A DNA stretch of 64,000 bases from Ectocarpus siliculosus (lineage: Eukaryota > Sar > Phaeophyceae > Ectocarpales > Ectocarpaceae): positions 773,452 through 837,451 of the forward strand of contig FN649752.1 in the NCBI GenBank assembly GCA_000310025.1, written 5' to 3'. The notes beneath the pieces are model-generated. The model saw nothing but the letters and a program-made list of their open reading frames with translations. It made no database searches and had not been told where the DNA came from. Below, in pieces: positions 1-32,816 of this stretch. A program made the position numbers and the translations under genes. Position 1 is the stretch's first letter. Every line of letters starts with the position of its first letter.

Positions 1-62
1 TTCCTTCGTTGGTAGAAGCTCTTGGTTCCGATCCCTCTTCTCCTTGGAGCACATTTGTTAGC
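1..62 (-). CDS. Possible further exon of the giant gene, cut by the window edge
   Basis: On the minus strand, ATCCCTCTATTTCAG at 77-63 is a strong acceptor. It is followed in phase 0 by an open stretch (ANKCAPRRRGIGTKSFYQRR) that runs out of the window. It is too short to judge by content. The 849 bp between it and the donor at 911 hold no other exon I can support. Confidence 0.3.
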
Positions 63-3000
63 CTGAAATAGAGGGATAAGCACATTGAAATGAATGCACA
101 AGAGATTACAGGTGGGGTAGAATCAGTAGTTCAACAAGCGTTCCATACGACGAGCACGCCACGCACCATTTAGTTGTCTGCGATGGCATGCTCACAGCGA
201 AGGGAAATAAACTAGTTTGTCCCAAGGGTATGTAGTCACCGCAGACCGGAAGCAGCGCACACCTCACTTGTTGAGAGCAAGAGACGCCGAGCAACACAAG
301 CAGAGAAGCAACCACACGACAAAACCCACCGGCGTTGCATCGCTTCACACCGGACACGCCACTGCTCAGACTCCACTCTTGCGCGTTTTAAGTCTCGTCC
401 TTTGCTGGCCACGTAAGCTCTTAGACGACGGGCACCCTCGCCCTAGAGGTTGGGAGAGACCGAAGCCGGGGAACAACGTAGGGGTTCTGGTTTGGTGAGA
501 TTCGCGTGGACGACCAACTAAGAAGGAATCTGTATCTCGAATCATCACTATTTGCTGTAAGTGCAAGATCTCACGTTTCGACGAAAGACGACTCCCCCGG
601 TTGTGCTTGCGTTTTGTGTATGGTGTCGGTCTCGTACGCAACACGGAAAGAACGTGCACCTAAAACTGAGACGCTCTACAAAACAATGCGTCAACACAAA
701 CAAGGCTGAAACCAAGATCGGACAACGTCTTCCCGTTGCAAGCCAACAATTATTTTGAATGCACCGTTCTGGAACACACCTGCAGCGCGACCATCCCGAT
801 CCCGCCTGTCCCTTCTCCCAGAAACACCTCCGGTTCGTGCCCCGTTGTTTCCCGCTTTTCTTCCTCGTGCTCGCCCACATGCCCGCCTCCCGCATGATTA
901 GAATGTCTCACTGACGCCTTTCGAGCCCTCCGCTTGCTGCCCACGGCAAGGCCGGCTATGCTGTCGAGTTGTTCGCCGAGGTCTGCGTCAGCTTGAGCGA
1001 GCTGCAGGCGGACGGCGCGGGTTTCTTTCTCCCGCTTGAGGACGGCGTTTGCCCAGTCGTCTTGGAGAAGGATGGCGAGGGCGCGCGTCTTTTTGTCGAG
1101 TTCTCGTGCATGCCTCGCTGCCTGCGCGTGAAATGTGCGAAAGAATGGGGGTGGAAGTATTCTGCTAGAGTCTGGTCGGAAGTTGATCGATCCTCCACGA
1201 ACAAAGTCAACACGTCAAGGCAAACAAGAGACAGAAGAAGCGATGGTGGCATCAGCCACACGTGCGGCTGTCGTGTGCTCGTACAAGAACCGTCGCGTTG
1301 GCCACAATTTTTTTTTATGTGCTCCAGCGACGGAGCCATGACCGTAGTACCGACTGAAACACCCAAACGTACGAACCCCGCGTCTGAATAGCACAAGTTG
1401 GTGGAATAGAAGTATTTCTGGTGGCCACGTATATTCGACCACGGTATGTGCCGCAAACGTTTATCGATCGCATTAAAGAAACACACCCATGACCGCCGGG
1501 ACGCCTGAATACGGCGCAAACTGTGGTCTATTCCGGCGTGCACCAAAAATTGTATTTGAAACTTAATCGCAACTCAACAGTAGAGCAAATCGTGGCGTGG
1601 GTGGCACTAACGTAGCACTCCTGACCACGAACGTTGCAGGAACGAGCGCAAGGAAGCGGTTCGATAGTTCAACGACTTTGGCGCGCCAACTGTTCTTTAC
1701 TTTAATCCCTGTGATCAATGTCCAGAATGAGCAGTGCTTTTCAGGTGGCTCAACGGGGGTTGCCTCTCACCAACCCCTGCAGACGCCGTAGCTGACGCTC
1801 TCGCGCTACCTCCTCCGTATCCTTGACCTTGAGCTTCAGCTCAGATGCCAATTCCAGCCCACGAGCGGCCTCCCGCTGTGCTTTCTCTCGTGCCTCAGCA
1901 ACCTCCACGCTGGCGGCGGCCGCCTTTTTCCAAGCCTCAGCCTTGTCGGCGGCCGCTTTCGCCTCCTTCTCCATCGCCTCAGCTCGGGCAGCCCTAGCCG
2001 CAGCGGTAGCGCCGGCGGCCGCCCCCTCGGCGGCAGACAGCGATGCGGCGTGCAGACAGAGACGGCTCCACCCTCGGAACACGAGGGCCCTGCCTCTCTC
2101 ATGGCACACGCGAGCAACCTAAAGGGAAAAGTGTCTTTAAGGCTGGTGCCAATAGCATAGTCGTGGATACGCAAAGTTCTTCATGTTGCTTAAAATACAA
2201 CATTGGATCAACATCTGGCTTCCTAGGCTGAGATCGGTTGACCGACATATCTGTGCGTCTCACCAGCATCTTCAGACGGTGTAGTTGATGCTCCCGCGCC
2301 ATCTTCCCTGCTTTCTCCCGTGCCTCAGCAACCTCCACGCTGGCGGCGGCCGCCTTTTTCCATGCCTCAGCCTTGTCGGCGGCTACTTTCGCCTCCTTCT
2401 CCATCGCCTCAGCTCGGGCAGCCCTAGCCGCAGCTGTAGCGGCGGCGGCACCCCCCTCGGCAGCAGACAGCGATGCGGCGTGCAGGCACAGCCGGCTCCA
2501 ACCGCGGAACATGAGGGCCTTGTCACTCTCGCCACACACTCGAATTATCTTGGCAGGCAACGATGGGAGAAGGCGTAACGTGGGGTGGGACGGAAGGCAG
2601 TACTCGTTAGGTGCAGTGGGCTAAAGAAAAAACCTTTCCTCACTTGAGACACGGTACCGGTTCATGGCTTCCGGCAGTGTGTTTGTCTCAACCACCGGCA
2701 GTATGTTTGTCTCACCACCATATCGATATGGTGCTATACAAATCGGAGGGATTGGTCACAAGGCGATGTTCTCACCAGCATCTTTATTCGTCGTAGCTGG
2801 TGTTCTCGCACTACCTCCTCCGTGTCCTTGACCTTCAGCTGTAGCTCAGACGCCAATTCTGAACCACGAGAAGTTTCCCGTTGCGCCTGCTCCGTCGCCG
2901 CGGCCACCTCTGCGCTCGCCGCGGCCGCTCTCCTCGACGCCTCAGCCTTGTCGGCGGCCGCTTTCGCTTCCTTCTCCATCGCCTCAGCTCGGGCAGCTCT

Positions 3001-6000
3001 GGCCGCAGCGGTGGCGGCGGCGGCGGCCCCCTCGGTCGCAGACAGCGATGCGGCGTGCAGGCAGAGACGGCTCCACCCTCGAAACATGAGGGCCCTGTCT
3101 CTGTCGCCGCAGAAACGGATAACCTTGACGGTACGGATACAATGAATGGCGCCGGAGGGTGGGGTAGGGGAAGTCAGCCCGTGCACTACACAGCGAGACC
3201 ACGTACGCTGTAACTGTGAGCATCAGATATCGTTTCGATAGTAGGACGACTCCAACCGGCAAGGAGCCCTCTTTCCATGCACCCGCCCCACCAAAATGGA
3301 ATGGATAGAGTACCCACAAGCGGTAGTTCCACTGGGGTTGCCTCTCACCAACATCTTCAGGCGATGTAGTTGACGATCTCGCACTGCTTCCTCCGTGTCT
3401 TTCACCTTGAGCTTCAGCTCAGCAGCCAATACCGACCCACGGGCGGCCTCCCGTTGGGCTCTCTCTCGTGCCTCGGCAACCTCCACGCTGGCGGCGGCCG
3501 CTCTCCTCCACGCCTCAGCCTTGTCGGCGGCCGCTTCCGCCTCCTTCTCCATCGCCTCAGCTCGGGCAGCCCTAGCCGCAGCGGTGGCGGCGGCGGAGGC
3601 TCCCTCGGCGGCAGACAGCGATGCGGCGTGCAGGCAGAGACGGCTCCACCCTCGGAACATGAGGGCCCTGTCCCTCTCGCCGCACACGCGAGAGGTCTTG
3701 ATTGGCAGCAGCGACAAGGAGGGGAATGTGGCGATAGTGAGAGCGGTGAGAGGAAACACAGGCGAGGCTTGCATGCCTGGATAATGTCGAGAGTACGACG
3801 TACGAGATTCATATACCTCTCGTCCCTACTCTCTATTTTCAACTGAAATATGCCCCGTATGCCGCAGAGTTGTCCAGTGGAGGCTGTCTCTCACCAGCAT
3901 CTTCAGACGGTGGAGCTGATGCTCTCGCACTTCCTCCTCCGTGTCTTTGACCTTGAGCTGTAGCTCAGACGCCAATTCCGACCCACGGGCGGCCTCCCGT
4001 TGTGCTTTCTCTCGTGCCTCGGCAACCTCCGCACTGGCGGCGGCCGCTCTCCTCCACGCCTCAGCCTTGTCGGCGGCTGCTTTCGCCTCCTTCTCCATCG
4101 CCTCAGCTCGGGCAGCCCTAGCCGCAGCGGTGGCGGCGGCGGCGGCCCCCTCGGCGGCAGACAGCGATGCGGCGTGCAGGCAGAGACGGCTCCACCCTCG
4201 GAACATGAGGGCCCTGTCTCTCTCGCACACGCGAGCGATCTTGATAATCAGCAACGATTAGGAAGGAAGTGCGGCGATAGTGAGAGCGATGAGAGGAAGC
4301 ACAGGCGAGGCGAGAACGTCTGGCTAACGGCAAGAGTAGTATACGATGCGCGAGACGTGAGAGGCCTCTCAATACTGTCTACTGGATTATTCTGCGTACC
4401 ACGCCGTAGAGTTGTCCAGCGGAGGCTGTCTCTCACCAGCATCTTCAGGCGATGTAGTTGATGCTCTCGCGCTACCTCCTCCGTATCCTTGACCTTGAGC
4501 TGCAGCTCAGATGCCAATTCCGACCCACGGGCGGCCTCCCGTTGTGCTTTCTCTCGTGCCTCGGCAACCTCCACGCTGGCGGCGGCCGCTCTCCTCCAAG
4601 CCTCAGCCTTGTCGGCGGCCGCTTTCGCCTCCTTCTCCATCGCCTCAGCTCGAGCAGCCCTAGCCGCAGCGGTGGCGGCGGCGGAGGCCCCCTCGGCGGC
4701 AGACAGCGATGCGGCGTGCAGACAGAGACGGCTCCACCCTCGGAACACGAGGGCTCTGTCACTCTCGCCGCACACGCGAGTGATCTTGATAATCAACAAC
4801 GATTAGGACGGGAGTGTGGCGACAGCAGTGAGAGCGGTGAGGGGAAGCACAGGCGAGGCTTGCACATCTAGATAAAGGTGAGAATAGATACGACGTACGA
4901 GACTCAGAGACTCCTCGTTCACCTCTACTGTATACTCGAAATATGCCACGTACGCCGCAGAGTTGTCCAGTGGAGGCTGTCTCTCACCAGCATCTTCAGA
5001 CGGTGGAGCTGATGCTCTCGCACTACCTCCTCCGTGTCTTTGACCTTGAGCTGTAGTTCAGATGCCAATTCCGACCCACGGGCGGCCTCCCGTTGTGCTT
5101 TCTCTCGTGCTTCGGCAACCTCCACGCTGGCGGCGGCCGCTCTCCTCCAAGCCTCAGCCTTGTCGGCGGCCGCTTTCGCTTCCTTCTCCATCGCCTCAGC
5201 TCGAGCAGCCCTAGCCGCAGCGGTGGCGGCGGCGGAGGCCCCCTCGGCGGCAGACAGCGATGCGGCGTGGAGACAGAGACGGCTCCACCCTCGGAACTTG
5301 AGGGCCCTGTCACTCTCGCCGCACACGCGAGAGATCTTGATATGTAGCATCGATTGGGAAGGAAGTGCGGCGATAACGAGCGCGGTGAGGGGAAGCACAG
5401 GCGAGGATTGCACATCTGGCCAAATGGCGAGTGTAGTATACGATGTAGGGGACCCACAGGCCCCTCGCCCATCTCTACTATTGCCTACTCAAATATGCCA
5501 GGCATGCCCTGGGGTTTCCAGTGGAGGCTGTCTCTCACCAGCATCTTCAGACGGCGTAGCTGATGCTGTCGCAAGGCCTCCTCCGTGTCTTTGACCTTGA
5601 GCTGTAGCTTAGATGCCAATTCCGACCCACGGGCGGCCTCCCGCTGTGCTTTCTCTCGTGCCTCGGCAACCTCCGCGCTGGCGGCGGCCGCTTCCGCCTC
5701 CTTCTCCATCGCCTCAGCTCGGGCAGCCCTAGCCGCAGCGGTGGCGGCGGCGGAGACCCCCTCGGCGGCAGACAGCGATGCGGCGTGCAGGCAGAGACGG
5801 CTCCACCCTCGGAACATGAGGGCCCTGTCACTCTCGCCGCACACGCGAGTGATCTTGATAATCAACAACGATTAGGACGGGAGTGTGGCGACAGCAGTGA
5901 GAGCGGTGAGAGGAAACACAGGCGAGGTTTGTGTATCTGGTTTGTGTATCTGGCCAACGGTGGGGACGTGCAGTATACGATTACGAGACTTGAAGGCCTC

Positions 6001-9000
6001 TCATTTACTGCCTACTGAATATGCCACGTACGCCGCAGAGTTGTCCAGTGGAGGCTGTCTCTCACCAGCATCTTCAGACGGTGGAGCTGATGCTCTCGCA
6101 TTGCTTCCTCCGTGCCTTTGACCTTGAGCTGCAGCTCAGATGCCAATTCCGACCCACGGGCGGCCTCCCTTTGTGCTTTCTCTCGTGCCTCGGCAACCTC
6201 CGCGCTGGCGGCGGCCGCTCTCCTCCAAGCCTCAGCCTTGTCGGCGGCCGCTTTCGCTTCCTTCTCCATCGCCTCAGCTCGAGCAGCCCTAGCCGCAGCG
6301 GTGGCGGCGGCGGAGCCCCCCTCGGCGGCAGACAGCGATGCGGCGTGCAGGCAGAGACGGCTCCACCCTCGGAACACGAGGGCCCTGTCCCTCTCGCCGC
6401 ACACGCGAGCGATCTTGATTTTCAGCAACGATTAGGACGGGAGTGTGGCGACAGCAGTGAGAGCGGTGAGGGGAAGCACTGACGAGAATTGTGTATCTGA
6501 CCATCGGCGAGACGTATACGATACACGAGACTTGAAGACCTCTCAATACTGTATACTCGAAATATGCTGCGTATGCCGCAGAGTCGTCCAGTGGAGGCTG
6601 TCTCTCACCAGCATCTTCAGACGGCGTAGCTGATGCTCTCGCACTACCTCCTCCGTGTCTTTGACCTTGAGCTGTAGCTCAGACGCCAATTCCGACCTAC
6701 GAGCGGTCTCCCGTTGTGCTTTCTCTCGTGCTTCGGCAACCTCCACGCTGGCGGCGGCCGCTCTCCTCCAAGCCTCAGCCTTGTCGGCGGCCGCTTTCGC
6801 TTCCTTCTCCATCGCCTCAGCTCGGGCGCTCCTGGCCGTAGCTGTGGCGGCGGCGGCGGCCCCCTCGGCGGCAGACAGCGATGCGGCGTGCAGGCAAAGC
6901 CGGCTCCAACCGCGGAACATGAGGGCCCTGTCACTCTCGTCGCACACTCGGATTATCTTGGCATGCAGTAATGGGAAAATACGTAGCGTGTGGGGGGAGT
7001 GATGAGCACAAAGGTCGAGGGGGCTTGTGTATGCAGTTGGCAGTGAGAGTACAACGTGCAAAACAATAGACGAGACGAGAAACACCACTCTACACTGCTC
7101 CCATATACCGTATACCCTACTGTACTGAAACCTGCCATGTACGCGCGGAGGTATACAACAGCGGCTGCTTCTCACCAGCATTTTCGTTCGGCGTAGCTGG
7201 TGCTGTCGCAATGCCTCCTCCTTGTCTTGGATGTTGAGCTGTAGCTCAGACGCCAACGTTGACCCACGAGCGGCCTCCCGTTGTGCTTTCTCTCGTGCCT
7301 CGGCAACCTCCACGCTGGCGGCGGCCGCTCTCTTCCACGCCTCGGCCTTTTCGGCGGCCGCTTCCGCCTCTTTCTGCATCGCCTCAGCTCGGGCAGCCCT
7401 GGCCGTAGCGGTGGCGGCGGCGGAGGCCCCCTCGGCCGCAGATAGCGACGCGGCATGTAGACAGAGTCGACTCCAACCACGGAACAAGGATCTCTTGTCC
7501 GTGTCGCCATATGCTCGAGAAATCTGAGAAGGAAGTAACGAGGCGACGAAGAACCATACTTTGTATTCCGCAGCGAGACAACCGTTTGGAGCTTGTGGTG
7601 CGCGGAACTAGCATTCAAGAACCTGTCGCGCGAGCGCGTTGGTGTTCCTGTCCCTATGGTGGGTGTTCGTGTCCCTATTGGGCTTCAATTTAATTGCACC
7701 TTCACCGACCGGGCTCTATCTTCACCTTCGCCACTGCCCTAAGTCGCTTCAGCTCCTTCTCCCGATTGCTTCGCTCAAACCCCTCCTCTTCGACGGCGTC
7801 AATCGACGAAATGGCCTTTGCGGACCCCTTACCCTCTACGTCGACCTCAACAGCCCTTGCAGCCGGTGTTGCCGCTGCAGATGATCCCTCAGCCGCGTTG
7901 AGCGAGACGAAGTGCGAACACAGGCGACCCCAGCTACGGAACATGAGGCGCCGGTTTCTATCGCCAAGCACTCTGGCCACCTGAACGTTCGGGGAGTATC
8001 GAAGTGCGGGAAACCTTCGTTGGAGCCAATGTCGCGAGGCCCATTGTGATCGACATCCCGCTTTTCAAAGGGTGGTAGAACGAGGTAGACCATGTTGGCC
8101 CAATGCAGTCGCACTGCTGCAAATGCCAGCAGGTGCCGATCAAAGCGTAACCTTAATACACAATTGAATACATGCGTGGGAATGCATCTTGGTAGAACAC
8201 ACGGAGTGATACTCACGTACACCTCGTCTTGACATCGAGCAAACGTAGACCTCGTCTTGACATCGAGACCAGGTCTATTCGTCACCAAGAACAGTTCTGA
8301 CTACCCAGCTCTCCTTGTATACTAATTCGACGGGCGATCTAATACTCGTCGTCGATGGCGAGCCGAAGCTCTTGTGGTACACGAATGATCAGCGAAAGTC
8401 TGGGAGAAAACAGCAACACAGGGACAACCGGCCTGTGGGGGGTCTCAAGGGCATATCGATTTCGAGGATGTCCGTCGGCCCATCAAACGCTTCAACATGC
8501 GGTGCACGCTACAGCGGATAAAGCTACCAGCGTGGCTGTGTGGTGGTCTCGGTCTGTGAATGGCGTTCCCTACCGTCTCTGCTCTCCTGAAACGTTCGAC
8601 GAATCGTTCAGCCAACGACCTCTCGCAGTATTCTGTTTTCACAGACACAGCGACGTGCTAAAACAGAGGCAAAACGGCGTGACGCTTCGTGTACGATATG
8701 CAGGACGGCGCCTCCCCTGAATTTCGCTGCTGACCTAGGGCAAATCTACGAACCGTCGTCGCCTCAAAGATGTTTCTGCTACGTTCGACGTCAGTGAAGC
8801 GTCAAGGTCAGGACTTGGTCTAGATGAGGGAGTTTTTAAGTCACGCAACGTGTACTCACCACTCGAGCGGCTAGCTGTCGTTTTTGGTTGTCGACGGCCT
8901 TTTCAGCTTCCTCTGCTCTCTTCACAAGGGTCGCCGGCATCACCGACTCTCCGTCGGCCTTTTCCGATGCCTTGGCTTGTTCTGCAGGTGCATGTTCTGA

Positions 9001-12000
9001 CTTCTGCATGACATCCGACCTGGCTATCGCTTCCGCGGCCTTCGATGACCCCTCGGCGATGTGGAGAGGCGCCGAGTGTCGGCAGAGCTGACTCCAACCG
9101 TGGAAGAGAAGTCGTCTGTTGTAGTCCCGACCTGCGCTGCAGATCTGCGGTCGGGCCGAGATTGAAACACACACTCAACGTGAGATTCATGGGTATGATA
9201 GATGGAGTCCGACAACAAGACCGCTACCCTGTTGCCATTTCATCGATTGTCAGTGCGTCCGGGTGCGGGCGTAGAGATGTTTTGGCACCACCCTACTTTT
9301 CCCTGTCGATTGGTGGTGGAGAAAGCGAACTGGGTTGCCAGCCCAACCACACTTACCATATGCAATGCCCTCCTCTCCCTCTGGTCTCTCGCTTCCGACT
9401 CCGCCGCTGCCACGCGTTGCCGAACCACGGCGGCGTCTGTCTCGATTCCGGCGGCCGTTGCAGCTGCAGCGGCCTGCGTCGCTTCCGCCTCCGCTCTGGC
9501 CGCCCTCGCGGCTGCGGTGGCCGTCGCCGATACGGCATCGGCGGCGTTGAGAGACGCGGCGTGCAAGCACAACCGGCTCCACCCTCGGAACAGCAAGCGC
9601 CTGTCTTTGTCCTTGCAGACTCGAGATATCTGGGGCGTAGAAGCGACGAGAGCAAGACGGCGTGGTCCGCATGACGTGTGGGTGCAGCGTGGGCCAGGTC
9701 CGCAATGTACTTCACAAAGGCTCGATGGTTGCACTCCTACAGGTCATCCGTGTGATATCGATTCACATCCCAGCAATATTCCGAATAGACGACGGCTCGC
9801 GTGGCTCTCGTAATGGAAGCCGACGCGGTCCACGCGGCACGTCCGAGGCTCCATGAACTCAGCTTGCTTCGTACGATCATGAATAGAGCGTCAACGACAC
9901 CCTCTCATATGCGTAGGAGTTGCATTTTGTGTTAGAAACAAAAACGGAGGCAAATGGCTCCAGCGTGCGCTTGGAGGGAATGGGCTCTACAAACCGGTTG
10001 CAGTTCCAATCGAGGTTTGAGTCGTGTCGGTTTCAACTTCGACAGTCACATGCGCCAAGCGCATGGTGTCTCACGGTTGTCCTCGCCCGAACCCGGTTCG
10101 TCTCCTGCTCCTCCTCGCGGCTCCGCTCTGTCGACGTTTTCGCTTCGACCGCGTCGGTCGACGAAGCTGCTGCCGCTGCGGCCCCCGTTTCCTGAGCCTC
10201 CACCCTCACCGCCCTTTCAGTGGGTGCTGCCGCTGCAGGTGACCTCTCCACCGCGGCGAGCGAGGCTGGATGCGAACGGAGGCGCCCCCAGCTGCGGAAT
10301 AGGAGGCGGCGGTTCCTATCGCTGAGCACTCTAGCAACCTAGCGGTGCGGGAGGGGAGTGAAAGTACGACATGTGTCATGCTGAAGCCAGATCTTCAATG
10401 GCTATCTTTCGTCGGTATCGCGAACTACAGAGGGTCGTGGCAACAGCTCGATTCAAAAGGTGCATTGCAGCCACCTCTGTGCAGCCGCAGCACGATATCG
10501 CCATGAGCAGGCATCGCAATGGGTGCACGATGTTGGAGGTGAGATCGTCGTATTCTTGCTGTCATAATTCAGCATGCTGTTCACGAGAACATCAACATGT
10601 TCACATGTTCTGGCCTTGTCCTGACATACCACCTCTCCCACTTGTCGTGGTCCTCCTCGCTGTGTTCACGTTTTCAACGCGGTTTTGGCCTTTCCGATCT
10701 TCTCCGTAATCCCTCGACCGACGCATGATCTATCATCCATGGTCGGCGGGGAGACAAAAGCTCTTGTGGCACACGAACGACGTGCGAAAGTGCTGAAAGA
10801 ACTTGCAACACAAGGACAGCCTGCCTGTGAGGGCCTCGAGATTGCATCGATATGCGAGGATGCCCGTCGGCCCACCTCAAAAACAACATGTGGCGCAAGC
10901 AACAGCGGATGAAGCTGTCAGATGATGGCTGTGTGGTGGTCTCGATCTTGTGCACGGCTTTCTCTACCAACGGGTCGCGGTTGAAACATGCGCTCAACGT
11001 GAGATCGTGGATATGACGGGCGGGGTCGGCCAACAGGACCGCTACACTACTGGCACATCATCGATTGCTCTTGAGTCCGCGTACGAGCGCAGAGATGTTT
11101 GACATCACTCTACCATATCCCGTCGTAGGTGAAGATCACACAACGGCCGACTGATAGCACCGTGTGCTAGCGAAAATCCACTTCTCCTGCATGGTTTCGA
11201 AATCAGGGAAGAGACGATACACCGTGCTCCGATAGACCCAGCTTCAATAGTGGTCACATGCGAAATGTGGAGATAGTCAAACACCTCACCATCTGCAATG
11301 CCCTCCGCTCCCTCTGGTCTCTCGCTTCCGACTCCGCCGCTGCCACGCGTTGCCGAACCACGGCGGCGTCTGTCTCGATTTCGGCGGCCGTTGCGGCTGC
11401 AGCGGCCTGCGTCGCCTCCGCCTCCGCTCTGGCGGCCCTCGCCGCTGAGGTTGCCGTCGCTGATACGGCATCGGCAGCGTTGAGAGACGCGGCGTGCAAG
11501 CAGAGCCGGCTCCACCCTCGGAACAGCAAGCGCCTGTCTTTGTCTATGAAAACTCGAGATATCTGGGCGTACGAGCGACGGAAAGCATGATGTACGGGTG
11601 CGGTGTGGTTCGAGTCCGTATGCTTGACTGAGGTTCGATAGTTACATTCCACGGGTACCCGTGTAATGTCGACTCACACCTCAGCAGCATGTCGGAATAG
11701 ACGACGGCTCGGGGTGATTTTCGTGATGGTAGCCGAGGCAGTCCACGTGGTACATCCAAGGCCCCATGAACTCAGGTTGCTCCGCATACAAGCGACCATG
11801 GATGGAGGGTCAACGACAGGCGATTTGAAAGTATCCGTATCGTGGTGTTGCCCTTGTTGGTCTATGAGCACCATCGCGCTGACTCCGATTTTGTCATTGC
11901 GGCGTTGTTCGAACATCTCGGTGTGGCATGAGACGGTACCCCTCATTCAAACATGGCCCGATATGCCGCTAGATGGCTCTCAACGTCGTTTCACTCGGTG

Positions 12001-15000: not shown

Positions 15001-18000
15001 CTTCCTCTGCTCTCTTCACAAAGGTCGCCGCCATCACCGACTCCCCGTCGAGCTTTTCCACTCCCTTGGCTCCTTCCGCAGGTTTGGCAGATGCATGTAC
15101 CTGCTTCTCCATGGCATCCGCCCTAGCGGCTTGAGCTGCTGCAGGCTCGGCATCTGACGAAATTCCATCTGCGCCGCCTTTTCCTGCAGCGTGTCGGCAG
15201 AGCCTACTCCAACCATGGAAAAGAAGCCGTCTGTTGTAGCCCCGACCTGCGCTGCAGATCTGCAGTTGGGCCACGATAGGAACACGCGCTCAACGTGAGA
15301 CTGATGGACACGATGGGTGAGGTAGGACAACAGCGCCGCTACACCACCGCCACCGCCACTTCATCGATGGGCGTGAGATATTTGACACCACTCTACCGTA
15401 CCCCGTCGTAGGTGTAGAATACACAAAAGGCTGACTGATGGCATATTCCGCTAGCGAAAGCCCACTTCTCCTGCATGGTTTCGACGTGGGGGAATAACGT
15501 GCACCGTCCTTCCATAGACCCAGCTGCCATGGTGATGGAGAAAGCGAACTGGGATGCCAGACCAACCACACTTACCATATGCAGTGCCCTCCGATCCCTC
15601 TGGTCTCTCGCTTCTGACTCCGCCGCTGCCACGCGTTGCCGAACCACGGCGGCGTCTGTCTCGATTCCGGCGGCCGTTGCAGCTGCAGCGGCTGCCGTGG
15701 CTTCCGCCTCCGCTCTGGCGGCCCTCGCCGCTGCGGTGGCCGTCGCCGATACGGCATCGGCGGCGTTGAGAGACGCGGCGTGCAAGCACAACCGGCTCCA
15801 CCCTCGGAACAGCAAGCGCCTGTCTTTGTCCTTGGAGACTCGAGATATCTGAGCGTAGAAGCGGCGAGAGCAAGACGTCACGGCCCGCAAGGAGTACGGT
15901 TGCGGCGTGGGCCCAGGTCCGTAACGTTCTTTGCTGAGGCTCAATGGATGCATTCCTTGGGCATCCGTGTGATGTCGACTCATACCCCAGCAACATATCG
16001 GAATAGACGACGGCTCGCGTGACCTCTCGTGATGGTAGCCGACGCGGTCCATGCCATAATATCCGAGGCCCTATGACCTCAGGTTGCTCCGAATACAAGC
16101 GAATATGGATGGAGTGTCAACCACCCTGCTGTCATAAATAGTGTTTTCCTCAAAGGGTTTCGCTAGATAATCTAATGGAACTATCACGCTGACTTCGTTT
16201 CTCCCAAACGCTTGCAATCGTTGTTTGAACGTTGCAGCTTGGCTTGAGACGATTCGTTTTGTTCGCACAGGGGCCGATACGACATGGATAGTCCTCAACC
16301 ACGATCGTGTCACCCGATGAACTAACTGCCCAGGGTACCCAACGAGTTACATTTTATTTTCTTGAAACTGAGGCAAATGGCTTAAGCACACGCTGGGCGG
16401 GCATGCGCCCTAAGAAACAAGCTGCTGTTCCTATCTAGCTATGAGCCGTGTGGGCTTCTACTTCTACTTCACATACCCCAAGTGGATGATGTCTCACCGT
16501 GGTCAATGCCCTATGCCGCTGAAGCCCCTGCTCCTCCTCACGTCTCCGCTCAGTCGACCCTTCCGCTTCGACAGCGTCGGTCGACGAAGCTGCTGCTGCG
16601 GTCTCCTTTTCTTGGACCTCCACCCTCGCCGCCCTTGCAGCTGGTGTTGCCGCTGTAGATGCTCCCTCCACCGCGTCGAGCGAGGCGGCATGCAAGCACA
16701 AGCGACCCCAGCTGCGGAATAAGAGGCGCCGATTTCTATCTCCGAGCACTCTAGCAACCTAGAAGGCCGGGAGGCGTGTGAAAGTATCGAGTATGTTCAG
16801 CCAAAGGACGATCCGCATCTACCATCGTCGTCCCGCAGCGGATCGTAGACTACAGGTCTGAAACAGTAGGTACGTTCTCGCTCACGGGGTGCGCCACAAT
16901 GGTTTCACGATGACAACGGGAGGTAAAATCGGCTTGTTATACTACGTTCAGGGTGTTCTTCAAGATCCAAATCCGGACCTTGTCCTGATCTAGAGGCCAG
17001 CTATCTATCTCTGCTACCATTGTTGTGGTTGCCGTGTGCACGTTGGCAGCTGTTCTGGCATATTCCCTCTACCTTATCTCCTGTAGTTACGTATTCGGTG
17101 TATCACCTGTGAGAGTGCATATGGATTTGCGAGGACGTTTGAAACGCCTCGAAAAATACAACGCGGAGGATGCCCGAAACGCCTCAAAAAATACAACGTG
17201 GTGGATGCTTCAAGGTGGACAAAGCTTCCAGGAACTGCCTATGCACCAGTTTCGGCCTTGCGCATGGCGTTCTACTGACTCCGTCACATAATCCTGACAC
17301 TTTTGGCATGTCGTTCAAGCTACGACACAACGCATCAGGAGCACCTTCGCAAACGCGTGCCGGATTCCGCCTTCACCGACACTGCCTCATGCTCTTGTAG
17401 AGGCAGAGCTGTTTGGTACTACACGGTAGAGGACGGCGCCTCCTCTGAATTTCGCTGCTGGTCTAGGGCGAAATCTACGGACCTCGTCGCCTTTCAGATA
17501 TTATTGTAACGGCCGACGTCACCGAAGCGTCACCGTCAGGGTTCAACGATATCCCCCCGAGTCCCACCTGGCCAGCAAACTCTTTAGATTAATTCATTCA
17601 AGGACATGCTCACCAATCGAGCGGCTAGCTGTCGTTTTTGGTTGTCGACAGCCTTTTCAGCTTCCTGTGCTCTTTTCACAAGGGTCGTCGCCATCACCGA
17701 GTCCCCGTCGACCTTTTCCGATGCCTTGGCATGTTCTGCAGGTGAGTGTGTCGGCTTCTCCATGACATCCGGCCTGGCTATCGCTTCCGCGGCCGTCGAT
17801 GACCCCTCGGCGATGTGGACAGACGTCGCTTGTCGGCAGAGCCGACTCCAACCGTGGAAGAGAAGGCGTCTGTTGTAGTCCCGACCCGCGCTGCAGATCT
17901 GCGGCCGGGCCAACATTTGAAACAAACACTCAACGTGATATTCATGGGTACGATGGAATGGGATCCAGTCGATTGGTGGTGAACAGAGTGAAGGCGATGC

Positions 18001-21000
18001 CAGCCCAACCACACTTACCATATGCAGTGCCCTCCGCTCCCTCTGGTCTCTCGCTTCCGACTCCGCCGCTGCCACGCGTTGTCGAACCACGGCGGCGTCT
18101 GTCTCGATTCCGGCGGCCGTTGCGGCTGCAGCGGCCTGCGTCGCTTCCGCCTCCGCTCTGGCGGCCCTCGCCGCTGCGGTGGCCGTCGCCGATACGGCAT
18201 CGGCGGCGTTGAGAGACGCGGCGTGCAAGCAGAGCCGGCTCCACCCTCGGAACAGCAAGCGTCTGTCTTTGTCCTTGGAAACTCGGAGCATCTGGGCGTG
18301 GAAGCAACGAGAGCAAGACAGCGTGGTCCGCATGACGTGCGGGTGCAGCATAGTCCGAGTCCACAACGTTCTTCACTGAGGTTGTCAATGGTTGTTTTTC
18401 TTGGTCATCCGTGTGATAGTAACATATCTCAACAACATATCGGAATAGACGACAGCTCGCGTCGACCCGGTCCATGGGGTATATTCGAAGCCTCTCAAAC
18501 TCTTGCACGCGTAAATCGGACGTCTTGGCTTGGATTGAGGGTGTTCGCTAGGTTCAAACACGCCGGATAACTCCCAACGTCATTACCTTCGATGTGCCGC
18601 CCAGGTTACCCAAACATTTGCATGCTGTTTGAGAAACCGACATAAACTTTTCGACCGTGTGCTGGGCGGGGGGGGTGTTCTACAAACCAGGTTGTACTTC
18701 CTATTGTATAGTCGGTGCGGATTGTTAGAAGCAAATATTGGAGATGGTGAGACATCCTGAGGCGACCGGTGGTCCCGCCTGCGTCTTGCGGTCGTTCTTT
18801 TGAACATCGACCTAAACCCACGTTGTGTTGAGACTCAACCACCGCTTACGCCATTCCAATAGCATGTGCTGGAGCATGCCGAACAAGCAGCCTCAAGCGC
18901 TGGAAATAACGGCAATTCGGAAACGCACGCCAGAATACCCGTCATCGCGCTTACGCGTAGCCCCCACTACCCTAGAGCCAGTGGTAACTCCAACGTAGCG
19001 CTCAGGCTTCGTGTAATCCAATCTCCTGTGCGCATGATCTCATCCACCGCCGTACCCACGAGAAACTGATTCCCCAAGCCCCCTACTCCAGTTGAGCAAC
19101 TTCTACGTTTACATGCCCCAAGCGGGTGGTGTCTCACCGTGGTTGTTGCCCTCAGCCGTTTCGGCTCTTGCTCCTCCTCACGGCTCCGCTCGGTCGACGA
19201 TTTTGCTTCGATCGCGTCGGTCGACGAAGCTGCCGCTGCGGTCCTCATTTCCTTGGCCTCCACCCTCGCCGCCCTCACAGCTGGCGTTGCGGCTGCAGAT
19301 GCCCCCTCCACCGCGTTGAGCGAGGCGGCGTGCGAACACAGGCGACCCCAGCTGCGGAAGAGGAGACGGCGGTTCCTATCCCGGAGCACTCTAGCAACCT
19401 GGCCGTGTGGGAGAGGCGTGAAAGTACAAAAGAACATGCCATGTTGGAAGTCAGCACACAACGTGTATCAATCATCAATATCCACCTCTTTTTGCAACTA
19501 TTATTGTCGCTGCGTTGACGTTTTCAACCGTTCTGGCCTTTTGCCCAGTCCTTGCTGGTACACACCTCACTGGTGAGGATGAATAGCTGTTGTCGAAAGT
19601 GAGCCCAAACTCTTCAGGCAGACCAAACGTTTGTGAAAGTGTTGGGAATAATTGCAACACGAGTCCAGTCTGACTACGAGGGTCTCGCTAGAGCTCTTCG
19701 TGCATGTCATATCGTTTCTAGGGCGCAGGTCGAGCATACGAACGTCTTAAAAGAAAACGTGTGATTCGTCTGCCGTGAACATGGCTGTCAGCCAGTGTTT
19801 GAATGCTGGTCTAGGCCTTCTGCATGGGTGTCTCTGCCGTCTCTCTACGCATGCCTGAACGTTTGACAAATCCTTCAGGATAGCAACAAGTCCGACAGAA
19901 GCGCCTTCAAACCCTTGCGACATTCGTTCTACAGAAACAATGCGACGTCCTCCTGCAGAGACCGATCTGTGAAAGCTAGTACACGACTCGGTAGCGGCGC
20001 CTCGCTAGAACATGGCTGCTGACCTAATCCCGCATGTAAGAGAAAAATCTACAAATTTCCACCATCTCTCAAGTGTTGCTGTTCCAGCGAACGTCACTGA
20101 AGATTCGCTGTCAGGACTCTCAAGACACCTGAGCTTGGGGCGGTTGCTCATGCTACCGTGTACTCACCATTCGAACGGTCTGTTGTCGTCTTTGCTCGTC
20201 GACTGCCTTTTCAGCTTCCTCTGCTCTCTTTTCAAGATCCGCCGCTACCATCGAATCCTCGTGGCCCTTTTCCGATACCTTAGCTCGTTCTGCAGGTGTT
20301 GGTGCCTGCTTCTCAACTGCATCCGCCTTGGCCACGCGAGCCGCTTCCGCCGCAGCAGCTGAGACGTCGTCTATGGCACCCACGGAGGCAGCGTGTAGGC
20401 AGAGCCGGCTCCAAGAGCGGAATAGAGACCTCCTGTCTCTATCGCCGCATACGCGTGTTATCTGAAACACGTCCCCACATATTTTAGGTATGCGTACAAT
20501 GGGTGTTTCACGGAAAAGGAAATGGTTATTTTCAGGCAAAATAGTGGGAACCATCGACGGAGCGCCATCGAACCAATGTCTCTGAATCTGTGTGTCACCG
20601 CGTACGCGGAAAACTGACGTGTATGGTGAGAGCAGGGGTGAACAGCGGTGATGTCCGCTGTGCGTGTAAACAATGTGACCCCACTTCACTTCAAGTCTTC
20701 GACAGACAATTTACCCCAGAGTACACGTAATACTCATGCTGCTCACGCAAAGTGATTTTTCTTTCCACCTCACTCGCCGCAGTGGACGGCAGTTCTTACC
20801 AAGATCTTTATCCACCGAAGCTGATGCTCTCGTAATATCGCCTCCATGTCTGTGATCTTGTGCTGTAGCTTAGCCACCGAGTTTGACCCTCGAGCCGTCT
20901 CCCGTCGCGCCTGTTCCCTCGCTGCCGCCACATTCTCGATTTCATCTTCCGCTCTCCTCGATACCTCAGTCTTATCTGTGGCCTCTTCAGTCTCCATTTC

Positions 21001-24000
21001 CATCGCCGTCGATCGGGTGGCCCTGGCCGCAGAGGTGGTGGCGGCGGAGGCTCCCTCGGCGGCAGATGCAGCGTGCAGGCAAAGACGGCTCCAACCGCGA
21101 AACAAGAGAGCCCTGTCTCTCTCACCGCACACGCGAGTGATCTTGACGGTCGGATACATTGAATACAGGGCCGGGACGTAGGGAGGGGGTAGTCGGCCAC
21201 AGCAACTTGCGTACAAGTTGGCACTAACACTTTGTGTATCTTCGTTGCGAATACGACCACTAGACAGTTCCATTATTCGAGTATTTCTACGAGTTCAGCG
21301 GTGAATGGCCCTCTTGCTGATTTTCTGTCCCGCCAATATTGGATATCCAGAGGACTGTACAGATTTCGCAACAGGTGTTCTCACCAATCCTTTCACCCGG
21401 CGTAGCTGGTGCTCTTGCACTGTTTGCTCTATCTTTTTGACCTTCAGCTCCAGGTCGGCCATCAACTTTGACCCGAAAGCAGTTTCCCGTGGTGAAGCGG
21501 CGGCCGCTTCCGCCTCCTTCTGGGCTGCATCAGCTCGGGCGGCCCTGGCCACAGCAGTGGCAGCGGCGGATGCCCCCTCGGCAGCAGAGAGCGATGCGGC
21601 GTGAAGGCAGAGACGGCTCCACCCCCGAAACATGAGGGATCGATTCCTCTCTCGACACATGCGCGTGATCTAGGCAGTTGTGGGAAAAAATCGGGGGTTG
21701 TAGCGGGGGAAAGTGAGCTGGTATCTGAAGCGTGCCTGAGCACCAACATTCATCGTACGGCCTTTTCCCGCTGTTGCACAGCTACAGACTTTCCCAGATC
21801 GGATGGATGTGCTCACCAATCGCTTCATCCGTTCGAGGCGATGTTCCCACTCCCTTGGCACCTTCCCTGGCGTTTCCACCAAAGCAGTACTACCGGCTGC
21901 CGCTCCTGTCTCTTCCTCCATCGCCCGGCCTCGGGCACTGTCGGCCATAACTGCGGCGGCGGCAGCCCCCTCAGCCGTGGACAGCGTTGCAGCGTGCAGG
22001 TACAGTCGGTTCCAACCGCAGAACATGGAGGCCCTGTCTCGTTCACGGCATACGCGGGTGATCTTGACACGCAAGAAGGACCAGGAGGGGGATGTGGGGT
22101 GGGATGAAGTGGTAGGCAGCAACATGGGCGAGGCTTGCACATGCGGCTAACAGTGAGGGTGCGACGAGCGAGGCTGACGGGCCAGACGAGGAACGCCCCT
22201 TCTCTTCTACGCACAGAGTCATCCTAAACTCGGCTGAAATGTGTCATATACGTGATAGAGTTTTCCAGTGGAGGCTGCGTCTCACCAGCATCTTCGTTCG
22301 GCGTAGCTGATGCTCTCGCGCCCCATCTTCAGTGTCTTTGATGGTGCGATGGTGCTCAGCCGCCAACACACTGGCGGCTTCCCGCTGCGCGTGCTCCCTT
22401 GCAATGGCAACCTCCGCACTGACGTTGGCCGCTCTGCTAGGATTCTCAACCGTTTCGGTAGCCTCCTCTGCCTCTTTCTCCATCACCTCAGGTCGTGCAG
22501 CCCTAACCGCAGCTGTGGCGACGGCGGAGGTCCCTTCGGCAGTAGACAGCGACGCGGCGAGGCAAAGGCGGCTCCAACCGCGGAAAATTAAGCGCTTTGC
22601 TCTGTCCCGGCAAACGCGGCCCATCTGAGAAAGACGGACAACATGCGAGTGGCAGCAGGGTCTATGGACGAAGTTGCTTCGTTTCGAAACGAACCACATC
22701 GCGAATCCAACTAAGAACATGAACCAGACAAAACGTCAGCGGTGAGCTGCATCGCCCAGTTGCCGAATTGGTAGCGGTAGGTTTCACATGGCACTTGTGT
22801 GTACCACTCGGCCGTGTAGCATAAATACCGCCACAAGACTCGAACTTAGCATGCTGATTCGGACAAAACTGGCTGCACATATGCACACATGCCTACTAGA
22901 CAACCGTAACTCGAAAACGTCTCACAATTTTCACCCCTTGCTCCTGTCGACCTATCTCATTGTCGTTTCTCTGCCGTTGGACTGTGTGTTCAAGAGCAGA
23001 ATCTCGAGTGACTTTGCTCATCTCGCTCTCGGTATCCCCGGGGCCTGAAGCTGTGGACCGCGTGGTCGTCGCCGAACGAATACCCCCCCCCGTGGAAACA
23101 CGCCACAAACGGACCCATGCCCTTGTCAAAGCTTCCCTTGTGCGCTCCCTCGTGACGCGAACAACCTGGGTGGAGGTTTCGAGGTGGGCATGCTTCAAGT
23201 TTTATCCCCAGAAATAGCAAAAATATTGCCAAAGGAAAACGCTGATTCTCTCTCGGTGTCGCCTGTCGCCTGTTCTGCACTTGGTGGGTTTAATTCCAGA
23301 AAGCGATGGCGACCTGATCTACAGCTCTTCGACTCTACACAATCCCGGTACGCACGACCCAGCAGAATAGTTTCTCTCTCTCGTTTGTCTCACCAATCGT
23401 CGTAGGATGTTCTGCCTAAGCGACCCCCCTCTAGGAGTCCCGCTTGCATTTTTTGAATCATTGAGGGATGCAGAGTATCCAACGGCGGCGCCGTGCGAAG
23501 GGGCGGAAGCGAGGGCCTGGAGTTGAAGTTTTTCCCTCTCGGCGTGTATGTTGGACACCTCAAGGTATGACAGGTGCCCGGCCAAGACTTGGTTTAACCG
23601 ACGCATGTGATCGGAGGTCAGCCGCCGCTCGTGATCCAAGTCGTGTTGCTGCTGCCCTGTGAGAAAGTACTGCCAAGTGAAAGTGATCATGGGACAGGAC
23701 CAACGCAAACGAATGAGTCAGGCTGCTGGCAGTGGAGCGAAGGGTGAAACTGAGCAAGTTATATTTCTACGACGGTGGTTGGAAATGTGCGAGCAGGTAG
23801 AACACCTCCTACAGCAGTTTTTACATTTTTACAGTACACGCTAACGAGTCACTCAGGTACGTACAGACACCAAGAGGCAGACTTGTCCAATTGCAACCAG
23901 CTCACCTCTCTGATCACCCCTATCGCTGGGAGTGGGCCGGAAGGTATGAGAGGTGGTGCGGGTAGCCCACCGGAAGACACTTCGCTGACAATAGAGGCAG

Positions 24001-24853
24001 ATTCGCCAAGACCACTGCTTCGTACCGTCTCGCTGCCACTCACGCTCAGATCGTCTCCGTTTGTATGTATCCCACCCCCACGGCTGCCGTAGTCGCTCCC
24101 ATTCCCACGGCTTTCAGTTTCTCCGCCAAATCTTTCGCCGCCCCTTGAAAATCCGCTAAACGATGCCGCATCCCCGATCCCCGTCGACATCCGCCGGCTC
24201 GATCCCGATACCCTTGGAACACCACGGTACTCTCGTGGCGAGCGGGTTGTTGCTCCTCCTCGTTGCGATGAATAATGCGCAGGGCTTGGTTGAGAAGCTT
24301 CCCACTCAGTTTCCTCTCCACCAGCGCTTTGATCACGGAACAGCGGCCAGCTACTGTTGAGACGGTCCTGGTGCGATGGCCTCCGCTCTTGAGAAGGGTG
24401 CCCGTCTGTCGCGGCGTTCCTCGGGCGTTGGCGAATTGTGTCTCTGCCTCCTGTAACCTCCAACGGTGGAGCAACACCAACGACGACGTTGTCACCATAC
24501 CGGATGAATTCCTTATCTGCCGTCTGGTCCTCACCTTCGCACGGCAGCAGGTCTGAGCTTCTCCGCGACTCGCTCAAAGGCGTGAGCCTTCCCGCATCGC
24601 GCATCGACGACGATGACCGTTGCTGCCGGCTACTCCGGTCGAGAAAGCCGCCACCTCCACTTGATGCGTCTGTCGCTGGTGGAGACAAATCGACGCTGTC
24701 TAGCGCCGCACTGCTAGAATACTGGCTACTGGCGTGTTCCGGTGGCCCCTGGGTCGAGAAGGACAGCATGCTGCCGAACGCTGACCCTTGCTCGCGTGCA
24801 CTGCTGCCATGTTCGGGCGAGGACAGGGAATCAGCCGATACATCTGAATCCAT
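1..24853 (-). CDS. Giant tandem-exon coiled-coil protein gene (5' part; continues past the left edge)
   Basis: I do not recognise this protein. Reading leftwards from ATG 24853, at least 34 complete exons and one edge exon can be joined with GT donors and AG acceptors, all in phase 0, with no internal stop; this gives about 3,580 codons. An in-frame TAG two codons before the ATG fixes the start. Exon 1 is Ser/Gly-rich and probably disordered, and exon 2 is helical. Exons 3-33 are 31 variants of one module: a core like RDRALMFRGWSRLCLHAA followed by an Ala/Glu/Lys/Arg-rich predicted coiled coil. There is no signal peptide or membrane segment, so it is probably intracellular; a cytoskeletal or scaffold role is only a guess. 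Exon lengths differ by whole codons. The alternative, several adjacent genes, is less likely because no repeat exon carries its own start context and the phase never changes. Confidence 0.72.
912..1121 (-). CDS. Giant gene exon 34: non-repeat coiled-coil exon
   Basis: This exon has 70 codons, with acceptor CACGCGCAG|GCA and donor TCA|GTGAGA, both phase 0. The peptide starts AARHARELDKKTRALAILL and continues with charged heptad-like sequence ending KRRARKAS. It lacks the FR.W core, so the repeat array appears to end at 1771. A longer open frame overlaps it in another reading frame, but only this frame keeps the phase and a coiled-coil composition. Confidence 0.5.
1122..1770. other. Intron of the giant gene
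   Basis: These 649 bp lie between the last class A exon and the non-repeat exon 34. I see no repeat core, no extra exon with matching splice sites and no mobile element. Confidence 0.4.
1771..7523 (-). CDS. Giant gene exons 23-33: homogeneous class A exon array
   Basis: Eleven exons, in transcription order: 7176-7523, 6609-6956, 6066-6413, 5539-5853, 4988-5335, 4437-4784, 3895-4239, 3349-3696, 2776-3123, 2264-2548, 1771-2118. Eight are exactly 348 bp. The others are 345, 315 and 285 bp, each shorter by whole codons. The module is I-T-R-V-C-G-E-R, then RDRALMFRGWSRLCLHAA, an Ala-rich run, EAMEKEAKAAADKAEAWRR, a heptad-like stretch and HRLKML. The donor is CTG|GTGAGA and the acceptor usually TCAAG|AT or CAG|. 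Copies recur about every 540 bp and the flanking intron ends are also conserved, so whole exon-intron units were duplicated. Confidence 0.75.
7726..20461 (-). CDS. Giant gene exons 8-22: C-D-B higher-order exon array
   Basis: Fifteen exons of three classes follow in transcription order. C6 20168-20461, D5 19138-19398, B5 18019-18291, C5 17614-17898, D4 16498-16758, B4 15576-15848, C4 14954-15259, D3 13993-14253, B3 13322-13594, C3 12690-12986, B2 11290-11562, D2 10075-10338, B1 9357-9629, C1 8860-9144, D1 7726-7980. Class D opens VARVLGDRNRRLLFRSWGRL. Class B opens ISRVSKDKDRRLLFRGW and ends RRALHM. Class C opens ICSAGRDYNRRLLFHGW and ends RQLAAR. Donors are class specific: ACG|GTGAGA for D, ATG|GTAAGT for B, GTGAGT or GTGAGC for C. 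All are phase 0. All five class B exons are exactly 273 bp. Confidence 0.72.
8330..8640. repeat. Intronic block co-duplicated with the C-D-B unit
   Basis: Within the long intron between a D and a C exon lies a block containing AGCTCTTGTGG, CGAAAG, GAGGATGTCCGTCGGCC and GGATAAAGC. Recognisable relatives occur at about 10735-10980 and 12170-12440. Weaker ones occur at about 14570-14800, 17100-17420 and 19585-19990. This shows that the duplicated unit includes intron sequence. I see no coding potential in it. Confidence 0.5.
20800..22624 (-). CDS. Giant gene exons 4-7: older class A repeat exons
   Basis: Four class A exons lie at 22286-22624, 21817-22062, 21385-21669 and 20800-21141 (113, 82, 95 and 114 codons). 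Each opens with a variant of ITRVCGERDR and FRGW(S/N)RL, and ends just before a GTGAGN or GTAAGA donor in phase 0. They differ from one another much more than the eleven class A exons at 1771-7523 do. The second reads FCGWNRLYLHAA, and two have lost part of the coiled coil in whole codons. They look like the older, non-homogenised end of the same family. Confidence 0.68.
22926..23165 (-). CDS. Giant gene exon 3: most diverged repeat module
   Basis: This exon has 80 codons, with acceptor CCCAG|GTT and donor ATT|GTGAGA, both phase 0. The start VVRVTRERTREALTRAWVRL keeps the frame of the repeat core (R-V, charged stretch, aliphatic, R-x-W-x-R-L) but has lost the Phe and the CLHAA tail. The remainder is Ser/Thr/Arg/Glu-rich. 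It is best read as an ancient or degenerated copy of the module at the 5' end of the array. Confidence 0.6.
23394..23669 (-). CDS. Giant gene exon 2: helical linker exon
   Basis: This exon has 92 codons. The acceptor is GGCAG|TAC and the donor ATTG|GTGAGA, both phase 0. The peptide begins YFLTGQQQHDLDHERRLT and ends with QNILRRL. It looks helical and charged in its first half and Ser/Gly-rich in its second. It lacks the FR.W core, so it is not a repeat copy. The nearby CACAG|GG acceptor would give the wrong phase, so the upstream site was chosen. Confidence 0.62.
23906..24853 (-). CDS. Giant gene exon 1: Ser/Gly-rich N-terminus
   Basis: This exon has 316 codons from ATG 24853 to the donor GAG|GTGAGC at 23905. 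The TAG two codons upstream closes the frame, so this is the first ATG. The protein is rich in Ser, Gly, Arg and Pro (for example SSRQQRSSSSM and SSRRMSTG) with no repeat core, which suggests a long disordered N-terminal region with many possible phosphorylation sites. No targeting signal is visible. Openings in the other minus-strand frames here are shadows. Confidence 0.7.

Positions 24854-32781: not shown

Positions 32782-32816
<35 letters not shown>

Follow-up and report, generated by a model that had tools for sequence, protein, structure and literature searches.

A predicted giant gene of Ectocarpus siliculosus with 31 tandem single-module exons

Can a run of 31 similar exons be read as one gene, how would such an array have grown, and what might its protein do? 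These questions are raised by a stretch of 64,000 nucleotides from the brown alga Ectocarpus siliculosus (positions 773,452 to 837,451 of the 4.30 Mb contig FN649752.1, assembly GCA_000310025.1). We refer to this whole stretch as the window and number positions within it. Our analysis predicts one giant minus-strand gene that comprises an N-terminal Ser/Gly-rich region, 31 modules and a short C-terminal exon.

Gene model and coding constraint

The predicted gene runs on the minus strand from 24853 to 750 and would encode, in 34 exons, a protein of 3,630 residues (about 390 kDa, isoelectric point 9.6). The model was built from genomic DNA alone, and its splice sites are sequence predictions. 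All 33 introns are predicted to be GT-AG and phase 0, and 32 of them have a GTRAG donor, the single exception being that of exon 22. The start ATG lies at 24853, with an in-frame TAG two codons upstream. Exon 1 (24853–23906) supplies 316 residues of Ser/Gly-rich N-terminus and exon 2 (23651–23394) a further 86, with a possible alternative acceptor at 23648 (NAGNAG).

Exons 3–33, from 23165 to 1771, each carry one copy of the module, which is 80–116 residues long (exons of 240–348 base pairs). Every one of these 31 exons is directly preceded by AG, directly followed by GT and divisible by three in length. A module profile recovered 30 of the copies; the most divergent one, in exon 3 (23165–22926), was added by eye because it shares the frame and the conserved core residues. 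The giant gene of 31 tandem single-module exons in one frame, as described in the first-pass annotation, was thus recovered as predicted splicing. That annotation also took the array to be still open at the edge, and this part did not hold. Exon 34 (1121–750), the C-terminal exon, closes the frame with TAA, so the predicted gene is complete within the window, and a module profile search of the adjoining 30 kb beyond its left end found no module.

All 3,105 module codons are free of stops in the predicted frame, while the five other frames of exons 23–33 contain 20, 47, 18, 9 and 40. We then compared modules within five groups, the early A, alpha, beta, gamma and late A types described below, which together hold 30 of the 31 modules (exon 3 was excluded). 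The pooled ratio of nonsynonymous to synonymous differences per site (pN/pS), with its codon-bootstrap interval, was 0.29 (0.22–0.37) for late A, 0.27 (0.12–0.45) for alpha, 0.54 (0.43–0.67) for beta, 0.57 (0.45–0.72) for gamma and 0.54 (0.43–0.67) for early A. Across the late exons 23–33, differences at codon positions 1, 2 and 3 stood at 0.081, 0.080 and 0.211. The first 32 alignment columns, which hold a Trp-centred core, were more constrained than the remainder (pN 0.25 versus 0.37).

Sequence identity also follows the exon boundaries. Late exons 24–29 (6 of the 11) were 0.89–0.98 identical inside the exon versus 0.64–0.77 upstream and 0.70–0.85 downstream. For the alpha exons the values were 0.88 over the first 40 exon bases and 0.94–0.98 over the remaining exon, with 0.71–0.83 upstream and 0.50–0.73 downstream, and for the beta exons 0.73–0.84 inside versus 0.38–0.58 upstream. 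The gamma exons were less clean, at 0.60–0.93 inside versus 0.41–0.82 upstream (4 of the 5 exons, exon 8 being excluded). When whole exons were compared with whole introns, the exon was the more alike in all late and alpha pairs. The open frame and the constraint of the module array are far beyond chance, and the substitution pattern indicates that the modules are, on average, under purifying selection.

Several observations temper this account of the coding constraint. The pN/pS values come from pooled pairs that are not independent of one another. Antisense frame -1 also has a low pN/pS (0.25–0.69); it carries stops in 4 of the 5 groups, but in the alpha group it is stop-free, and there its value (0.25) is slightly lower than that of the predicted frame (0.27). 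In that group two of the five frames other than the predicted one are free of stops. Among the gamma exons, one 40-base exon part (0.60) was less conserved than the 40-base stretch just upstream of the exon (0.82), and in some beta and gamma pairs the flanking intron equaled or exceeded the exon in identity.

Growth and losses of the array

Module types were assigned from the gene model and a tree, in which a single branch separates each of alpha, beta and gamma from all other modules (support 100/99, 99/96 and 97/98, respectively). The tree gave no separate early A group, and exon 5 adjoins beta. Module numbers run two behind exon numbers, from module 1 in exon 3 to module 31 in exon 33. After exon 3 come the early A exons 4 (22624–22286), 6 (21669–21385) and 7 (21141–20800), with the early exon 5 (22062–21817) among them. 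Exons 8–22 follow in the order gamma, then beta-alpha-gamma repeats. The gamma exons are 8 (20461–20168), 11 (17898–17614), 14 (15259–14954), 17 (12986–12690) and 21 (9144–8860); the beta exons are 9 (19398–19138), 12 (16758–16498), 15 (14253–13993), 19 (10338–10075) and 22 (7980–7726); and the alpha exons are 10 (18291–18019), 13 (15848–15576), 16 (13594–13322), 18 (11562–11290) and 20 (9629–9357).

The late A exons complete the array: 23 (7523–7176), 24 (6956–6609), 25 (6413–6066), 26 (5853–5539), 27 (5335–4988), 28 (4784–4437), 29 (4239–3895), 30 (3696–3349), 31 (3123–2776), 32 (2548–2264) and 33 (2118–1771). Two of these modules are shortened, by 11 residues in exon 26 and by 21 residues in exon 32.

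The block order is interrupted twice, with beta absent between exons 17 and 18 and gamma absent between exons 18 and 19. The introns at these two places are composite. The first half of intron 17 (12689–11563) matches the gamma-beta introns 14 and 21, and its last part matches the beta-alpha intron 12; intron 18 (11289–10339) matches the alpha-gamma introns 16 and 13 and then the gamma-beta intron 21. From this composition we infer that one beta and one gamma exon were deleted whole, each leaving two introns fused; because the exons are phase 0, the frame would have been kept unbroken. Neither blastn nor tblastn found a relic exon in the introns, and the single 29-base blastn match falls to the left of the window. 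Taken together, the order and the intron matches indicate two modes of growth, in which early and late A exons were duplicated one at a time and beta-alpha-gamma exons as a block of three; the breakpoints of duplications and deletions would lie inside introns.

The alpha exons (18291 to 9357) are 0.92–0.98 identical, and their median silent-site divergence (dS) is 0.13, versus 0.47 for beta and 0.56 for gamma exons of the same blocks. This likeness at silent sites suggests gene conversion or an extra constraint on alpha.

The two losses, together with the strong divergence of exon 3, would fit a different account, in which the exons are divided among several genes or belong to a decaying array without expression as a single protein. 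We consider this very improbable, since the frame, the splice sites and the stop-free modules are intact throughout, pN/pS is well under 1 in all five groups, and neither blastn nor tblastn detected a relic exon in the introns. The array instead appears to be a clean case of a giant protein that grows by the copying of single symmetric exons and of a three-exon block; the fused introns still record two losses. With single exons and blocks copied and two exons lost in frame, it is reasonable to regard the product as an expandable scaffold, as the first-pass annotation suggested.

Searches for relatives and genome context

We searched for relatives of the module in several libraries. Pfam searches at E ≤ 10 covered 11 of the 31 modules and gave no match when eight exons were submitted singly (five module exons plus exons 1, 2 and 34) and one meaningless match (E 2) when exons 4–12 were joined. 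A search of NCBIfam with ten stretches, seven of them with modules and one extending into an intron, returned matches down to E 0.003, all of them far under the cut-offs, which we took as noise. A profile of all 31 modules had no match in the PDB. In the IMG/VR viral contigs 23 stretches fit the seed pattern, and in the GTDB prokaryote contigs 26 did; tblastn confirmed none of either. No title about this gene was among the literature matches listed.

Two single-module queries against the species' own 189.5 Mb assembly likewise revealed no convincing second locus. Six weak off-array matches were obtained, and the four inspected were rejected as paralogues. The match on contig C10 (E 0.009) is without the Trp, and the adjacent frames resemble an SMC protein by eye; in the match on C17 the matched part is without the Trp core. 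Those at C120:105520-105624 and C27:1152136-1152240 lie in near-identical, stop-broken stretches, probably a dispersed repeat, in which a short FHSWSQ match looks like chance. The remaining two are on C16 (E 1.5) and C9 (E 3). We therefore found no convincing relative of the module in the libraries searched, in agreement with its earlier description as unrecognised. The module is new to these libraries, and it occurs in a lineage in which exon-per-repeat genes have been reported for immune-type receptors.

That lineage context raises the possibility of a variable recognition protein like those encoded by the LRR-ROCO and NB-ARC-TPR genes, in which the choice of exons by splicing would yield different binding specificities; the first-pass annotation had also raised a recognition role. 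The architecture of one repeat per symmetric exon is the same, as described in the available part of a study of brown algae (PMC11378527), and any of the module exons, all symmetric and phase 0, could be skipped in frame. However, no GTPase, NB-ARC, LRR or TPR domain, and no nucleotide-binding domain together with LRR or TPR, matched in Pfam in exons 1, 2 and 34 or the 11 modules. Moreover, selection is on average purifying rather than diversifying (as judged by pooled pN/pS, not site by site), the alpha exons are nearly identical, and the protein has no membrane- or signal-like hydrophobic stretch (highest 19-residue hydropathy, 1.23). An immune or recognition role is very improbable in our view.

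Other features of the window and the assembly were recorded alongside these searches. Two stretches of the window at 46380–53226 (plus strand) match Vps35 (E 1.5e-15 and 6e-10) and are probably exons of one retromer gene. At about 26370–26420 (plus strand) a frame reads FDLDETLITRD, which resembles what we take to be motif I of HAD phosphatases, and a triplet repeat array of period 3 (ACA; 45 copies, 82 percent matches) occupies 32782–32917. In the assembly as a whole, Pfam Chloroa_b-bind (PF00504) has 87 matches. Twenty places score an identical 127.6 bits; C92 holds ten of them and C232, C488, C11 and C18 the others, and the set probably represents recent amplification of one gene. One light-harvesting protein of the assembly shares 190 of 198 aligned residues with FCP17 from the giant kelp Macrocystis pyrifera (PDB 9YGV), which marks the genome as brown-algal, and the species of that entry is confirmed as giant kelp in the accessible part of its report (PMC13219633). 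A search of the assembly for RuBisCO gave no match, with 5 of 14 controls recovered; the plastid genome is probably absent from the assembly.

The Trp-centred core and its comparison with known systems

The module is built around a segment of the type LFRGWSRLC. A Trp at module position 17 and a Leu at +3 from it (WxxL) are invariant in the 31 modules. Arg or Lys occupies -7 in all 31, Phe -3 in 30, Arg +2 in 30 and Ala +7 in 27. Thirty of the 31 modules contain [h]xxWxx[h], a pattern with a mean of 1.6 and a maximum of 6 occurrences in shuffled whole proteins. Modeled as a helix, the core is amphipathic (z > 1 in 22 of the 31 modules; mean z 1.14). The remainder of the module is rich in Ala, Glu and Arg, with few prolines, and the 30 core-to-core spacings range from 80 to 116 residues.

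On the basis of these features, of the coding constraint and of the absence of a membrane- or signal-like hydrophobic stretch, we tentatively propose, as a reading that falls only a little short of probable, that the gene encodes an exon-extendable, cytosolic helical rod with Trp-centred docking helices for a partner. The protein would be mostly helical, each module contributing one Trp-centred amphipathic helix at steps of 80–116 residues, separated by a helical spacer rich in Ala, Glu and Arg. The Trp helices would form a row of near-identical docking sites, and the copy number would set both the length of the rod and the number of partners bound. The first candidate partner would be a centrin- or calmodulin-like EF-hand protein.

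In the main rival to docking, the Trp, Leu and Phe residues of this face could just as well pack against each other inside the protein. The protein would then be a purely structural rod, like spectrin or other long helical proteins of the cytoskeleton, in which this face forms the center of a coiled coil or of a bundle of helices and binds no partner; this is a serious possibility, if one that falls appreciably short of probable. The amphipathic core agrees with it. The shortenings of exons 26 and 32, by 11 and 21 residues relative to 116, would suit steps of a hendecad or a heptad, and the spacers show periodicities of 2.75 in late, 7.0 in alpha and 3.4 in gamma modules. On the other hand, module length is variable, the spacers diverge faster than the core, and no such repeat was found by Pfam in the 11 modules or by the 31-module profile in the PDB. 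Hydrophobic periods of the spacer vary with module type, without a plain heptad. The spectrum peaks at about 4.0–4.05 in the core and at 2.3 and 2.75 in the linkers, with a weaker peak at 3.35–3.4, and a period of 3.5 is not dominant. These periods do not show a classical form of the coiled coil that the first-pass annotation had suggested.

We next considered the proposed docking helices against the targets of centrin. In the available parts of the sources, the Sfi1 consensus is given as Ax7LLx3[F/L]x2W[K/R] with the minimal motif [FLW]xxW[KR] (PMC5112337, PMC10180636), and centrin targets are described as W1xxL4xxxL8 in either direction, positions 1 and 4 always being hydrophobic and position 8 looser (PMC8622359, PMC9406199). 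The WxxL of the module is spaced like positions 1 and 4 in the forward orientation, and position 8 is Ala in 27 of the 31 modules. When Ala was permitted at position 8, the forward triad was present in 28 of 31 modules (mean of shuffled whole proteins, 3.2). Several counts speak against docking of this kind: none of the 31 modules contains the strict consensus, the reverse 8-4-1 triad or the minimal motif, and a single module combines the forward triad with a large residue at position 8. The forward WxxL together with the absent strict, minimal and reverse motifs indicates that the protein may be a multivalent docking rod, and that identity with Sfi1 is not established.

A true Sfi1 orthologue, or an Sfi1-repeat protein with degenerate centrin sites, is accordingly very unlikely. 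The resemblance lies in the giant size, in the propensity for helix and in the repeats themselves, each of which has a single conserved Trp with a hydrophobic residue three places before it, as in the repeats of TgSFI1, which has a comparable 32 potential sites in 3,903 residues according to the available part of its description (PMC9406199). Opposed to this are the motif counts, the Arg or Lys at -7, where the reverse triad has Leu, in every module, and a spacing of 80–116 residues rather than the roughly 33 of Sfi1 repeats. Pfam Sfi1 had no match with five modules singly or with exons 4–12 joined. We rejected membership of the Sfi1 family on motif, spacing and Pfam.

If the Trp helices of the proposed docking rod are indeed docking sites, the gene would encode a multivalent scaffold that does not belong to the Sfi1 family, with copy number as a possible length ruler. 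A wider version of this proposal is unlikely as a whole: a new family of exon-extendable scaffold rods restricted to the brown-algal lineage, whose Trp-Leu modules dock an EF-hand partner with a helix orientation opposite to that of Sfi1, and whose length, set by copy number and possibly by in-frame exon skipping, would measure out a cytoskeletal or flagellar structure in the manner of a molecular ruler.

Spectrin repeats are helical repeats of about 100 residues with one conserved Trp and a fixed length of about 106. The present module shares with them the approximate length, the helical character and the single conserved Trp, but its length of 80–116 residues is not fixed, and Pfam found no match in the 11 modules covered. 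Nebulin-like muscle genes have one repeat per exon, super-repeats and multi-exon blocks that were duplicated together. The copying of several repeat exons as a block, here beta-alpha-gamma, is similar; the lineage differs, and the two are likened by architecture only.

Compared with Sfi1 proteins (yeast and human Sfi1, TgSFI1 and Tetrahymena Sfr), as far as the available parts of their descriptions extend, the predicted protein is likewise helix-prone, with one conserved Trp and a hydrophobic -3 residue per repeat, and it resembles TgSFI1 in its giant size, with about 30 repeats in about 3,600–3,900 residues. It differs in that the strict, minimal and reverse motifs are absent from all 31 modules, Leu at +3 is invariant, and Arg or Lys rather than Leu stands at -7.

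In genomic architecture, the LRR-ROCO and NB-ARC-TPR genes of the same lineage are similar in having one repeat per symmetric exon and tandem expansion. For the brown-algal LRR-ROCO genes, the available part of the report describes one LRR per exon of 72 base pairs in phase 2, with diversifying selection (PMC11378527). Unlike those LRR exons, the module exons described here have 240–348 base pairs, phase 0 and purifying selection on average, and no receptor domain was found in the parts given to Pfam. The exon-per-repeat architecture is already known in brown algae, as far as that source extends; the present gene departs from those reported there in its module, its phase and its pattern of selection.

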